From a virus, in IMG/VR virus record IMGVR_UViG_3300031999_000081, positions 1 through 39,922 of that record: a stretch of 39,922 nt of DNA; one strand, 5' to 3'. Within the stretch, counting starts at the first letter, position 1, and each line of letters begins with the position of its first letter. Positions 1 to 39,922 of the stretch are shown here, one piece after another. The notes below the pieces were generated by a model. The model ran no database searches, was not told where the DNA came from, and was given only the letters and a program-made list of their open reading frames with translations. The position numbers and the translations under genes were made by a program.

Positions 1-127
1 CATATGAATAATCTTATTACTCGAGAAGACATTGAAAATCTCAAAAATGAAAAACTTACAATAACTCCAAGTGAAATAGATTATCCTTATTTGGCTGGCC
101 TTATTGATTCTGAAGGTTGTCTTAGAA
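1..127. repeat. Terminal direct repeat, left copy (contig closes into a circle)
   Basis: Bases 1-127 are identical to bases 39796-39922. Joining the two copies keeps the homing endonuclease reading frame open across the junction and completes a group I intron, so the overlap is real sequence continuity. A repeat of exactly 127 bases is typical of the k-mer overlap left by a de Bruijn assembler on a circular template. It is therefore probably not a biological terminal repeat. The unique genome length would be 39,795 bp. Confidence 0.95.
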
Positions 128-513
128 TAAAAAAATGGAAACCTAAAAATAAACCTAATGAAGTTTATACAATAAGCATAGAAATTGGCAATACCAAACT
201 TCTGATTATGCCCTGGCTTGTAAAAAGATTCGGTGGAAGTGTCAGTTTTGTAGAAGCAAAGAAAAACAAAAGAGCTTCTGCTATTTGGACACTTTCTGCT
301 GCCAAACTCTATGAAATCCTTCCAAAAATACAGCCGTTTCTTAGATCGAAGAGAGAAGTTTGCGATAAATTGATTGAATTCCAACAAACAATCTTGCCAA
401 ATGGCGGAGATCGTCATTCCGAACTTTTTCGTGCTTTGTTTGAAAAGCGCCAAGAAATTCGTGAACAAATTATTGCTGAAGTTCATGAACTTAATCGTAA
501 AGGTTCTCATTAG
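4..513 (+). CDS. LAGLIDADG homing endonuclease, C-terminal part (continues from 39394)
   Basis: This is the second half of a DNA endonuclease that cuts an intron-less allele and so spreads its host intron. The motif LAGLIDSEG lies at residues 30-38 of this segment, with E37 in the position of the catalytic metal-binding acid. It is followed by a typical single LAGLIDADG fold (an ISIEIGNTK strand and an FGGSVSF loop). Across the contig junction the frame is open from 39394, giving one 304-residue protein with two LAGLIDADG motifs, as in single-chain monomeric enzymes. The ATG at 4 has an AAAGGA Shine-Dalgarno just upstream (39786-39791), so the C-terminal domain might also be made alone. The gene runs antisense to the capsid gene and the intron around it, and its TAG stop lies inside an intron stem. 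Function is assigned by motif; the target site is inferred to be the joined capsid exons. Confidence 0.9.
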   Translation: MNNLITREDIENLKNEKLTITPSEIDYPYLAGLIDSEGCLRIKKWKPKNKPNEVYTISIEIGNTKLLIMPWLVKRFGGSVSFVEAKKNKRASAIWTLSAAKLYEILPKIQPFLRSKREVCDKLIEFQQTILPNGGDRHSELFRALFEKRQEIREQIIAEVHELNRKGSH

Positions 514-597
514 TCAAGTTCCCTCTGGTTGCCTTAGGCTATTGCCGTTAGGTTTTCCAAGTTATTCAGGTTTAGTTTTACTTCCCCCATGATGTTA

Positions 598-710
598 AGG
601 GAAACGCCTAAACGTGCAGCTGCTTCGTTTAAGACTGGGTCTTGAGATTGTAAAGTTACTTGTTCATTAAGCTGAATATATTGCCCATAGAAATCAATTC
701 TTGCATCTAT
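598..710 (-). CDS. Major capsid protein, N4-gp56 family, exon 2
   Basis: This is a 113-nt internal exon encoding residues 80-116 and two bases of codon 117. It reads IDARIDFYGQYIQLNEQV, then DPVLNEAAARLGVS, the most conserved stretch of the N4-gp56 family. It has no usable start of its own. The frame open on both sides runs into intron sequence, producing nonsense (arginine-rich upstream, NIMGEVKLN downstream). It is flanked by intron 1 (711-942) and intron 2 (597 and beyond). Exact borders come from the group I rules (U at the 5' exon end, G at the intron end) and agree with the family reading on both sides. Confidence 0.85.
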
Positions 711-942
711 CTTGCTATTACTTTCAGGTTGTAATTTAACCTTACTGACCACTTGCGTGGCGGAGATTCCGCTTCGGAAATCTCTCAAGGCCTTTCGTTG
801 CCTTGGTTGGACTTTCGCATCCCTTATTAAGGGCCATCTCGTTAAGTCTCTCACGGTGGCTTGCGCCTTCCGCCTTGTCGCCATAGCTTTCGCCTTAGGC
901 TTCCAAGCCGATTAGAGTTGGTTTAAAGTGGACATAAATTTT
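711..942 (-). ncRNA. Group I intron 1 of the capsid gene (compact, no ORF)
   Basis: This is a 232-nt minus-strand intron between codons 79 and 80. P1: exon GTGGAT pairs with intron GTCCAC (933-928), with U.G at the splice site. P3: CCAACTC (921-915) with GAGATGG (840-834), one mismatch. P7: GACTT (848-844) with AAGTC (814-810) inside GCGAAAGTCC. P8: CCCTTA/TAAGGG (833-821). P9-type hairpins follow: GAGATT..CCG with CGGAATCTC near 783-762, and CCAC-GCAA-GTGG (760-749) with a GNRA tetraloop. The intron ends in G at 711. All core pieces are in the right order, so it should self-splice. It lacks a homing endonuclease and may be moved, if at all, by another nuclease. Confidence 0.87.
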
Positions 943-1179
943 ATCCACCGCTGTTAATGGTACTGAAGGAGGAGTTACACCTGTATTACCTAATGGCACT
1001 AATGCAGTTGGCAATGGGTTATATCTTCTCATTCTTATAACACGACCACCATTGCGAGGCATGGTCTTCTTCATTGCAGCAATTTTATGAATAAGCGAAG
1101 GAACGGGGACACTTAATAATTTGTAACTGAAACTTTGTTGCACTGGAGCGGGCAACAAAGTCGTAGTTGTAATAGGCAT
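943..1179 (-). CDS. Major capsid protein, N4-gp56 family, exon 1
   Basis: This exon encodes residues 1-79 of the capsid subunit that builds the icosahedral head. The ATG at 1179 follows an AAGGA ribosome binding site. The segment shows the N-terminal hallmarks of the N4-gp56 family, including KTMPRNGGRVIRMRRYNPLP followed by GVTPPSVPLTAVD. The open frame runs on to a stop at 895, but the residues after D79 do not fit the family. The next family residues (IDARIDFYGQ) instead begin at 710, after a 232-nt group I intron. Exon 1 is exactly 79 codons (phase 0). Read unspliced, it would give a useless 94-residue peptide. Confidence 0.85.
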
Positions 1180-4074: not shown

Positions 4075-6051
4075 TTATTGTTGAGGCGGTTTGACTCGCT
4101 CCGCTGTTTGTTGTTCTGATGCTTTTAATGCATTAGATATAGCTACCAATTTCTCAAGATGACCCAAGTCCATCTCTTCTAATTCTTTCATAGCTTTAAC
4201 CTTATCTAAAGTTGCGCGCTCATCAGCAGCAGCCGATTCGTGAACTCTTGACACATACAGTCCTTGATCTGCCATAGCCCTTGAATTAGCCAAGTTTGCC
4301 CTTGCCTGCAATTCTTGCATTGTAATCTCAGCTTGTTGTTGTGCTTGTTGAGCTTGTGCTTGAGAATTCTTAAGAATAGAATCTGTAAGCTTTTTCTTAT
4401 TTTGGATAGTTGCAGCCTCAAGTAATACATCATCAGGAATTGGAACTCCAGCTTGACGTAGTTCAAGTATCTGAGCAAATTGCATTTGTCTTTGTGTTGC
4501 AGTATTCAATCCTTCTTCAACTGCAGCATCATATCTTCCAAAAGCTTTGTTATAAAACTGGGCCGTTGGCTCAGCTTCTAATATTCGTTTTATCTTGCCC
4601 GGAGTAAAGTTAACTTGTATAAGATCAATCATTAACTTACCAAGTAACTTTTGGGACCTATCAAGTTGATCAAATAAATTCTGTAAAGTAGTCAGTCCAG
4701 AACCTTGACGAAGCATACTTAAAATACCAGCCTTATCATCAGTAGCTGACCCTAAAAGTTCTTCATTAACACCAGATATTTCCATTATCTCTTTAGCTAG
4801 AAGCTCTGAAAGTTGAATCATTGATGGTGGTATTTGTGGTGCTTCAATTCGTTGTACATCAGTCATCTGTGCTTCTTCTTTCAAAGCAAGACCACGACCT
4901 TGGCCAGACAAGAATACATCTTTAGGGTTAACTAAAGCATTCTCTTTATATATCCAACCAGAATTAAGCTGAGACTCTAATATGTCTAATTCAATTTGAC
5001 GTCTACGATTATATAGATATTGTGCATCACGAAGACCACGTACAACACCTTGAATACGCCATGGGAAATATGGTGATTGTGGATTGTAATAAGCAAAGAC
5101 CGGCACAAATGGATAATTATCAATACCCATAGGATTTGGTCCATCGTACATTACTTTACCCTGAACAACAATTGCAAGACGGATTGTTGGTATCTCTTGT
5201 TCTATTACTGTAACTTGTGGATATGTTCTTAAGAACTCACCTAAAGCTTCTTCTTCTTTAGAGCGCCATTCCATTGCCTCGCCAGTTTGTGTATCAACTA
5301 GCATCTTCTGTGTTCTTGAATCCTTATAGTAAAACTCATCATAAGTATAAAGATTCTTATATCCATAATTATAAGACTCAGGCATAAACTGGAACTTACC
5401 ATCCCTACCAGTGCCTTCAGCATTACTATGTAAATTTAATATTTCTTCAGATCTACCTGGAAGTAATGATAATATCTCACGCTTTGAAACAAATGAACGT
5501 TTCCATATAGCTCTGCAATCTGATAAGTCAGGTTTACGGAAATATGGATCTATTAAGAAGCTATTATATGAACAGTTATCAACTTTAATATCGCCTGAAA
5601 CTGGATCTTTTCTATAGTCTAACCAGACCTGAAGCAAGTTCATTCCAGTAACTAGACCACCATAAAATGACTCTGATATGGTCTCTAAAACCCCTTCTTG
5701 ATCATTAACCCACATAATAACTTTGGTAAACTGATCAGCAGTCTCAGAATCCCCATTCTCAACAGGCGTAACAATTGTAGACTTTCTGTTCCTTCTTTGA
5801 TGCCCACCTATCATTTGTAGAGTACGTCTAATACGATTAAAATTAAATTGACGACGACGACTTGCTGGAAGATTACCATAAATATCATTCCAGAGTGTTT
5901 GATCCCCAGATTCGAATCTAGTGTCAGTGTCCGCTTCACCCCAAAAGCTTTGATTGATAGTTATCGATTCAGCATAGAAAGATTCCATGCGTGATAAAAC
6001 ATCACGATGGGGTTCATTATAATACTGCGGTCCAATTTCAGGGAACAACAT
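4075..6051 (-). CDS. Portal protein
   Basis: This 658-residue protein should form the dodecameric ring at the head vertex through which DNA is packaged. It has the usual P22-type portal layout: an N-terminal helical region with SRRRQFNFNRIRRTLQMIGG, a central crown/wing part (LDYRKDPVSGDIKV, SYNSFLIDPYFRK, RAIWKRSFVSKREI), a conserved YPFVPVFAYYNP segment, RGLRDAQYLYNRRRQIELDI, and ISGVNEELLGSATDDKAGI near residue 440. A glutamine/alanine-rich coiled-coil barrel follows (about 560-600, QAQAQQAQQQAEI). Length and gene order (terminase, portal, scaffold, capsid) agree. The start at 6051 has AAGGAG 5 nt upstream. Confidence 0.9.
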   Translation of the reverse strand: MLFPEIGPQYYNEPHRDVLSRMESFYAESITINQSFWGEADTDTRFESGDQTLWNDIYGNLPASRRRQFNFNRIRRTLQMIGGHQRRNRKSTIVTPVENGDSETADQFTKVIMWVNDQEGVLETISESFYGGLVTGMNLLQVWLDYRKDPVSGDIKVDNCSYNSFLIDPYFRKPDLSDCRAIWKRSFVSKREILSLLPGRSEEILNLHSNAEGTGRDGKFQFMPESYNYGYKNLYTYDEFYYKDSRTQKMLVDTQTGEAMEWRSKEEEALGEFLRTYPQVTVIEQEIPTIRLAIVVQGKVMYDGPNPMGIDNYPFVPVFAYYNPQSPYFPWRIQGVVRGLRDAQYLYNRRRQIELDILESQLNSGWIYKENALVNPKDVFLSGQGRGLALKEEAQMTDVQRIEAPQIPPSMIQLSELLAKEIMEISGVNEELLGSATDDKAGILSMLRQGSGLTTLQNLFDQLDRSQKLLGKLMIDLIQVNFTPGKIKRILEAEPTAQFYNKAFGRYDAAVEEGLNTATQRQMQFAQILELRQAGVPIPDDVLLEAATIQNKKKLTDSILKNSQAQAQQAQQQAEITMQELQARANLANSRAMADQGLYVSRVHESAAADERATLDKVKAMKELEEMDLGHLEKLVAISNALKASEQQTAERVKPPQQ

Positions 6052-38620: not shown

Positions 38621-39221
38621 CTAGATTGTTCTTGTAGAACGCATATTAATAACCCACAAATCATTTGTAATTCTAGGAACTTCAGCAAATTTATAACCTA
38701 CTGAAGCATTTAATGCAAGAGGACCATCGTATATTGGCGGTCTATAAATAAATGTAGCACTGTATCCATCTTGTTCAATGCAAGCATAAGCTTCCATACC
38801 AACAACAAATGTATTATAGACGTTTCTACCTCTTACAGATGCATTTGGAGTTACAGACCCAATTGATGAGACTAAGAATCTTAAGTTTCCAACGGCACCC
38901 CATTCTGAACGTAATGCATTCATTGGAGATGGGTAATCATTTTTATGAACAAATCCAGCAACACTTTCAAGATCACCAGTAATTTGTGTAGACCCTAAAG
39001 CAAAAAAAGCGTCCCTAATCGGTGAAGTGCCGAATTTATCTTCACCTTCAATGTTATCTAAAATTGTATAAGCATTATTAGATAATAATGTTCTTGTAAC
39101 TTCAGATACATCAACTCTTTGTATTTCAGTAGGATTATCTCCATTAAAACCAGAAACACAGTTAATGAATGCAGCAGTTCCTGCTAACATATTACGTGTC
39201 AATTCATCTTCTGTTTGTCTG
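38621..39221 (-). CDS. Major capsid protein, N4-gp56 family, exon 3
   Basis: This exon supplies the last base of codon 117 and residues 118-316 plus the stop. It begins RQTEDELTRNMLAGTAAFIN, the family continuation of exon 2. The central region (FALGSTQITGDLESVAGF) and C-terminal GRNVYNTFVVGMEAYACIEQ are typical of N4-gp56 capsids. A gene caller would start at the TTG at 39202 and lose the first six codons. The three exons sum to 951 nt, or 316 residues, a normal size for the family. The next gene leftward (37606-38604) starts after a short gap with its own AAGGAG site, so both are probably on one late mRNA that ends at the terminator near 37570. Confidence 0.88.
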
Positions 39222-39795
39222 CAATCTGTTACTTTTATGACCTTATTTCTAAGGCGGGGAGTCTTGTTAATCCTCCCTCCAAATCTTTCGAAATGGATCG
39301 GACTATCGCATATATTGGAATATTTCCAATATCTAAACCGCTTAGTCTCTGCGGGTCTTGACTAATCTTCAGTTTGTCTGTATTGTTATATCTATGAATA
39401 ATAATTTGTTGTCTTATATAGCTGGTTATATTGATGGAGATGGATGTCTTTATGTGGGTAAATATACACATAAGAATATTGTTATATATGAACAATCCAT
39501 TCAAATAACTTCTGTTAAGAAACCGGTTCTTAATGAATTCCAAATTAATTTTGGTGGTTCGATAAGAAAAAAACCATTTAAGCCAAACCATAAAACAGCT
39601 TATTGCTGGACTATAAAAGGATATGATTCGATTGTTTTGTGTAAGCAAATTCTTCCTTATTTGGTTGAAAAGACTTATCAAAACAATTTGTTCATAAATT
39701 TTTATGATCTTATAGAATTTAACAATTTCAAAACTGTAGATCCTCAAATTATCAATCAAAGAAACGATATTATTTTTAATATTAGAAAGGATAAA
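39222..39795 (-). ncRNA. Group I intron 2 of the capsid gene, 3' portion with catalytic core
   Basis: Read on the minus strand, after the P6-like arm (39366-39357) come the P7 5' strand GACTA (39347-39343), the P3 3' arm GGTTTAG (39339-39333), a P8 hairpin (ATATTGGAA/TTCCAATAT, 39332-39312) and the P7 3' strand TAGTC within GATAGTCC (39305-39301). This order (P3, P6, P7, P3', P8, P7') is the group I core. The intron ends in G at 39222, the expected omega-G, and exon 3 starts at 39221. Joining gives CT|C, leucine, and restores the conserved capsid reading GVSLRQTEDELTRN. Splicing itself is inferred, not shown. Confidence 0.87.
39358..39386 (+). promoter_or_regulatory. Candidate promoter of the antisense homing endonuclease
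   Basis: TTGACT (39358-39363), exactly 17 nt, TATTGT (39381-39386). The endonuclease ATG is at 39394, only 7 nt past the -10 box, so the mRNA would be leaderless. The -35 box lies within the arm of the P6-like intron stem (39357-39366). Confidence 0.5.
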
Positions 39796-39922
39796 CATAT
39801 GAATAATCTTATTACTCGAGAAGACATTGAAAATCTCAAAAATGAAAAACTTACAATAACTCCAAGTGAAATAGATTATCCTTATTTGGCTGGCCTTATT
39901 GATTCTGAAGGTTGTCTTAGAA
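39394..39922 (+). CDS. LAGLIDADG homing endonuclease, N-terminal part (runs off the window, continues at base 4)
   Basis: The ATG at 39394 opens a frame with no stop to the end of the window. It joins in phase with the frame at base 4 (405 nt, 135 codons, from this ATG to the internal ATG at 39799). Motif IAGYIDGDG is at residues 9-17, with D16 as the expected catalytic acid; FGGSIRKKP follows at about residues 55-63. Together with the second motif this makes a 304-residue, two-motif enzyme. No Shine-Dalgarno precedes the start. A promoter-like pair (TTGACT, 17 nt, TATTGT) ends only 7 nt before the ATG, so a leaderless mRNA is possible. The gene sits in a peripheral loop of a group I intron but on the opposite strand, which is unusual for phage intron endonucleases. 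Confidence 0.88.
   Translation, partial: MNNNLLSYIAGYIDGDGCLYVGKYTHKNIVIYEQSIQITSVKKPVLNEFQINFGGSIRKKPFKPNHKTAYCWTIKGYDSIVLCKQILPYLVEKTYQNNLFINFYDLIEFNNFKTVDPQIINQRNDIIFNIRKDKHMNNLITREDIENLKNEKLTITPSEIDYPYLAGLIDSEGCLR
39796..39922. repeat. Terminal direct repeat, right copy
   Basis: This is an exact copy of bases 1-127 and should be trimmed before circularising. It contains codons 135 onward of the LAGLIDADG gene that continues at base 4. Confidence 0.95.

Follow-up and report, generated by a model that had tools for sequence, protein, structure and literature searches.

The window analysed here, a whole virus record of 39,922 bases from IMG/VR, carries a major capsid gene that can be read only in separate pieces on the minus strand. 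Is this gene broken, or is it interrupted by introns, and what do the interruptions contain?

A major capsid gene in three exons

The minus strand of the window carries the structural genes, among them a P22-like portal, a terminase and the capsid. Bases 39796-39922 repeat bases 1-127, and with this 127-bp direct repeat the record represents a circular genome of 39795 bp. Joining 1179-943, 710-598 and 39221-38621 on the minus strand through the 39795/1 junction (237 + 113 + 601 nt) gives 316 codons and a stop, with no internal stops. The joined protein matches the N4-gp56 major capsid profile TIGR04387 at 132.6 bits (cut-off 60) over profile positions 1-319 of 324; taken separately, the fragments score 33.3, 14.8 and 49.4 bits, each below the cut-off. 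The pieces are as follows.

943-1179, minus strand: capsid exon 1 (codons 1-79), identified by the joined frame and by uninterrupted relatives; by itself it scores 33.3 bits with TIGR04387
598-710, minus strand: capsid exon 2 (113 nt), identified by the joined frame and by uninterrupted relatives
38621-39221, minus strand: capsid exon 3 with the stop codon; the 49.4 bits are those of the open reading frame at 38621-39202
39796-39922, no strand: terminal direct repeat, identical to 1-127, of the 39795-bp circular genome

The splice points are fixed because uninterrupted relatives supply them. We used the best 80 of 272 capsid relatives from an IMG/VR scan, most of which align in one piece (residues 1-313 or beyond) at 75-87% identity, and alignment across both junctions is continuous in nearly all of at least 80 relatives. 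The nearest relatives have their empty sites precisely at 237|238 and 350|351 of the mature sequence. The last base of both upstream exons is T and the last base of both introns is G. The sequence-only reading had proposed that the three segments splice into one uninterrupted 316-residue N4-gp56 capsid protein; the stop-free join and its end-to-end profile match bear this out, and as far as the sequence goes we can confirm that two group I introns divide the major capsid gene in three.

Elsewhere on the minus strand, the 700-aa product of 13649-15751 matches a C1q domain weakly close to its C-terminus (E 0.0063, below cut-off) and may be a tail protein that binds the receptor.

Two group I introns of one family

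The insertions occupy the following positions.

711-942, minus strand: intron 1, group I, 232 nt, without an endonuclease gene, at mature nt 237|238
1-597, minus strand: 5' part of intron 2, at mature nt 350|351, the same site as in the relatives L083-L098
39222-39795, minus strand: 3' part of intron 2, with P6', P7, P3', P8, P9 and the 3' motif GGTCATAAAAGTAACAG

Intron 2 totals 1171 nt and runs from 597 to 1 and then from 39795 to 39222. Both introns have a P1 helix, read from the sequence, with a U.G pair at the junction: GUGGAU with GUCCAC in intron 1 and UUCCCU with GGGGAA in intron 2. The boundary bases and the P1 pairings are thus as the sequence-only reading had described them.

Covariation was assessed in 47 short aligned introns, all from relatives. 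In these, 96.9% of cells in the core helices P3, P4, P5, P6, P7, P8 and P9 are paired, compared with 75.3% after shuffling, and two-sided changes occur in 24 of 30 pairs (280 two-sided cells against 80 expected), with both halves of the P3/P7 pseudoknot among the covarying pairs. A covariance model built from the same 47 introns with the window left out (R1) scores 114.2 bits on intron 1 (926-779(-), E 3.2e-25) and 40.3 bits on intron 2 through its 3' half (39409-39272(-), E 6.5e-8); alone, the 5' half is weak (580-425(-), 15.8 bits, E 0.035), and the next-best match in the window has an E of 0.79. Among 80 capsid loci picked for full-length capsid matches it found only three, all of them immediately upstream of capsid matches that start near residue 10-13. 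No close relative of the intron 1 core emerged from a pattern scan.

Rfam hardly sees these introns. A search of the whole window gave no intron match, intron 1 gave no match to Intron_gpI, and the 3' half of intron 2 reached 14.9 bits (E 0.11) with RF00028, whose gathering score is 50. At gathering score no introns were found in 18 relatives, and across eight relatives' loci RF00028 matched one intron, that of L211, end to end at 31.8 bits (E 2e-4), again under gathering. Because R1 hits both window introns, the core covaries and the L211 intron matches RF00028 from end to end, we assign the window introns to a group I subtype to which the Rfam model is insensitive. The group I order of P3, P7 and P8 in the sequence-only reading is upheld by the covarying core of the relatives and by R1; the covariance search it looked to succeeds for both introns with the family-specific model, and with RF00028 both stay below gathering. 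From their structure, both introns would be self-splicing.

How else might the interruptions be explained? Gene callers see at least three unrelated open reading frames here, as they would in a broken or misassembled pseudogene or in three separate genes, but the segments join exactly in frame, the breaks coincide with covarying introns and independent metagenomes have the same site occupied, all of which makes such an origin very improbable. Fainter still is the prospect of group II introns or inteins in place of group I. It can point to the weak score of RF02012 in intron 1 (16.2 bits, E 0.38), against which stand the covariation of the P3/P7 pseudoknot, the U.G at the 5' site together with the terminal G, and the end-to-end RF00028 match in the relative L211; inteins are ruled out because the insertions contain stop codons.

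An antisense LAGLIDADG endonuclease gene in intron 2

The plus strand of intron 2 encodes a 304-aa protein with two LAGLIDADG domains, antisense to the capsid, that matches PF00961 in two stretches with 49.9 bits (cut-off 23.1). This gene had not been seen in the sequence-only reading, nor had the hotspot described below.

39394-39922, plus strand: antisense endonuclease, first part; it continues at 128-513, since 39796-39922 repeats 1-127
1-513, plus strand: antisense endonuclease, second part, with the second motif (PF00961 match 91-354; PHROG 5046, 2.9e-44)

As read from the sequence, the gene lies inside P6, flanked by GGGAACUUGAC and GUCAAGACCC. Sixteen relatives of it (L083-L098) were found in IMG/VR, and in every one whose sequence includes the flanking capsid exons the capsid gene is interrupted at the intron 2 site, with the endonuclease antisense. 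Antisense LAGLIDADG genes predominate also in long introns at other sites, and sense-oriented ones are found at sites 36, 38, 105, 259, 264, 312 and 377. Scans for promoters and terminators near the antisense gene showed no clear excess over shuffled sequence and no standout promoter.

Three further observations concern the reading frames in these introns. An internal in-frame ATG at window position 4 (+), preceded by AGAAAGGA, begins the second LAGLIDADG half (169 aa) and is kept in all site-350 relatives examined; the first start lacks a Shine-Dalgarno sequence, and the gene may also yield a half-size product. Some introns carry capsid-sense open reading frames with no Pfam match (L102:7150-7530, L173:6311-6727, L171:109-732, L144:301-915, L162:3649-4203 and L180:10671-11132), of which some may be unknown endonucleases and others open frames opposite an antisense gene. 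The L211 intron (5072-5238), which has no endonuclease gene, retains AAAGGATGTTCATG in its P6a hairpin; a reading frame since lost apparently began there.

The capsid gene as an intron hotspot

To estimate how often this capsid gene is interrupted, we chose a sample through relatives of the portal gene, which avoids the bias of a motif-based search. Seventeen of its 33 complete capsid genes are interrupted, a count that gene models based on splice signals reproduce, although L278 and L279 among the 17 look like near-duplicates. Sixteen genes have no intron, seven have one, seven have two, two have three and one has five. A search with the 3' motif GGTCATAAAAGTAACAG returned at least 120 stretches; about 85 of the 120 listed lie in relatives of the window capsid gene (84 by tblastn match to the window capsid or endonuclease and one by profile). 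Both splice signals support 39 insertion positions well; adjacent positions (290/292/295; 309/310/312/314) may in part be single sites, which leaves roughly 30-39 sites. Insertion sites favour conserved stretches when compared with phase-matched random positions (p about 0.005).

The sequence-only reading had called two introns in one capsid gene an unusual arrangement. The two introns are there, but single capsid introns are already known, in LittleE and Tuc2009 (PMC3706429), and several per gene are common in this phage group.

In a tree of intron cores, intron 1 clusters (support 100/97) with five introns of site 354 and one of site 824, apart from that of L230, the other site-237 intron included. 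In L134 (2353-2888), the introns at sites 543 and 684 of one capsid gene are sisters (100/95), which suggests a recent jump within that gene. Because the nearest kin of intron 1 occupy other sites and the L134 introns are sisters, we conclude from this tree that besides homing to a site the introns also transfer from one site to another.

Introns of this family also lie in or beside other phage genes, namely portal (L128, L116, L124:9209-9362 and L259:1356-1503), terminase (L272:2105-2460), ribonucleotide reductase (L130) and tape measure genes (L106 and L148). Three capsid relatives (L299, L300 and L301) come from bacterial assemblies, in metagenome bins labelled Simkaniaceae, Thermotoga and Parachlamydiaceae. 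Two of these bins are Chlamydiota, and while binning errors are possible, chlamydial hosts would be noteworthy if real. L301 also has an intron of the same family (124.7 bits). INPHARED phages offer only relatives below 31% identity. One candidate, annotated in StenR_269 as an 'intron homing endonuclease', was set aside: the gene stands alone next to a capsid gene that has no interruption, and it lies outside any intron.

An open sense frame maintained by codon avoidance

Opposite the endonuclease gene, the capsid-sense strand is open from an ATG at 510 to a TAA at 39235, 356 codons in exact register with the endonuclease gene.

1-510, minus strand: sense frame opposite the endonuclease, part 1, codon register 0, beginning with the ATG at 510 and free of stops through codon avoidance
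39235-39795, minus strand: sense frame, part 2, an open reading frame ending at the TAA in the conserved 3' motif

The sense strand is open in this register because the endonuclease gene avoids TTA, CTA and TCA, the complements of the stop codons. In the window gene TTA and CTA account for none of 27 Leu codons and TCA for none of 15 Ser codons, whereas the figures for 12 large genes on the window's minus strand are 318/545 and 148/460. The avoidance extends to 14 of 16 clusters of antisense endonuclease genes formed at 50% identity. In the site-350 cluster, TTA and CTA make up 2 of 264 Leu codons and TCA 2 of 179 Ser codons, and the three trinucleotides have a frequency of 0.001 per codon in frame, whereas the other two frames have them at 0.114 and 0.052. 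Four LAGLIDADG genes that lie in sense orientation within these capsid genes use the codons freely (36/80 and 21/60). Two antisense clusters (L115/L195/L230/L235/L289 and L135_396) do not avoid them, and the sense strand there has no long frame; since these clusters lack the avoidance, an open sense frame is not required for every intron with an antisense gene.

The sense frames begin in or near the P6 loop and stop 0-180 nt short of the 3' splice site. When the best start among the first 40 codons is taken, a Shine-Dalgarno-like match of at least four bases precedes it in 85% of cases, compared with 16% of single internal starts, a contrast that is inflated in that the best of about two candidate starts is set against single internal ones.

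What is selected here? The frame might encode a functional overlapping protein, given that it is long, in register and provided with a start and Shine-Dalgarno-like sequences. The fourfold sites of the endonuclease gene, however, are the first positions of the sense codons, and they have diverged by 0.54, compared with 0.60 in the capsid gene; because this divergence nearly equals that of the capsid, the sense protein itself does not appear to be conserved or to be the selected target. Its sense identity of 0.432 is also close to the 0.389 obtained under random synonymous recoding, and an NCBIfam match is absent, so we regard an overlapping protein as unlikely. We give slightly less credence to the avoidance being a codon-usage relic of the endonuclease gene's origin, unrelated to the sense strand. 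Horizontally mobile genes can bring foreign codon usage with them, but in the antisense genes other A-ending codons are unrestricted (GGA 87, ATA 125, AAA 302), the avoided trinucleotides are frequent in the other two frames, the 14 avoiding clusters are divergent with synonymous change near saturation, and the sense LAGLIDADG genes in the same capsid genes show no avoidance. Both readings fit the data less well than selection for a host-gene strand that stays open as a translated, sequence-free 'shield' frame opposite the antisense endonuclease gene of the P6 loop, a proposal to which we give about an even chance.

Proposed mechanism and comparison with known systems

Our overall reading, to which we assign a probability of roughly 0.9, is that the capsid gene holds two group I introns of one family at 237 and 350, that intron 2 is a homing intron and that its sense strand is kept open, the likeliest reason being translation. 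Both introns would be removed from the capsid mRNA by self-splicing, as their splice points and core predict. Intron 2 would be a mobile element whose antisense LAGLIDADG product cuts intronless capsid genes at the site, after which the intron is copied in; we infer homing because of the endonuclease family, the occurrence of this gene at this site in 16 relatives and the conserved insertion sites, and for the cutting of the intronless allele those relatives are circumstantial evidence. Intron 1, which is free of an endonuclease gene, is most like introns at other sites of the capsid gene, and movement between sites would account for this. The capsid precursor RNA would be translated through the insert, as the codon avoidance suggests, and this translation may protect the long insert against Rho-dependent termination, or against decay, ahead of exon 3 and the virion genes that follow it. 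Two observations count against such a shield: the two antisense clusters described above lack it, and ribosomes that enter the core are reported to hinder the splicing of T4 introns (PMC2988022). Translation across the core, if it does occur, might at the same time have a regulatory effect on splicing.

Precedents exist both for introns in capsid genes and for antisense endonuclease genes. In the Cluster J mycobacteriophage LittleE, a group I-like intron in the major capsid gene, verified by RT-PCR, carries a LAGLIDADG-related endonuclease on the bottom strand (PMC3706429). It is, however, a single intron in a different capsid gene, it does not match R1 and so is not of the window intron family, and its sense strand is not open through the endonuclease gene (longest frame 106 codons). 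The T4 introns in td, nrdB and nrdD, with I-TevI, I-TevII and I-TevIII (PMC2988022), are likewise group I introns with endonuclease genes in core loops; unlike those of the window they lie outside capsid genes, and, as is generally known and described there, they are one to a gene with sense-oriented endonuclease genes. Jug phages resemble our phages in having dense introns in essential genes, averaging about 206 nt, and their splicing has been observed in metatranscriptomes, but they are huge gut phages with introns in many host genes and mostly HNH endonucleases, and the antisense LAGLIDADG pattern was not found in the part of that account covered here (PMC12363816). Group I introns of Didymium nuclear rDNA have a homing endonuclease gene antisense to the ribozyme, but this is a His-Cys box enzyme in eukaryotic rDNA, where there is no translated host gene (PMC9548176). 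What appears to be new is the density of the hotspot in one capsid gene and the constraint that holds the sense strand open, of which we found no description in the literature searched (few subscription journals among it).

Split capsid genes, about half of the complete ones sampled, are missed by gene callers and marker-gene surveys, and their introns go unflagged by Rfam. With 30-39 intron sites in a short essential gene, this phage group offers a natural test bed for homing, site-jumping and persistence. The codon avoidance is a clear signal of selection and poses the question of whether a long insert in a bacterial message must be translated even though its gene lies on the opposite strand. 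If the shield proposal is true, the coding of a selfish gene would be constrained by the transcript of its host gene.
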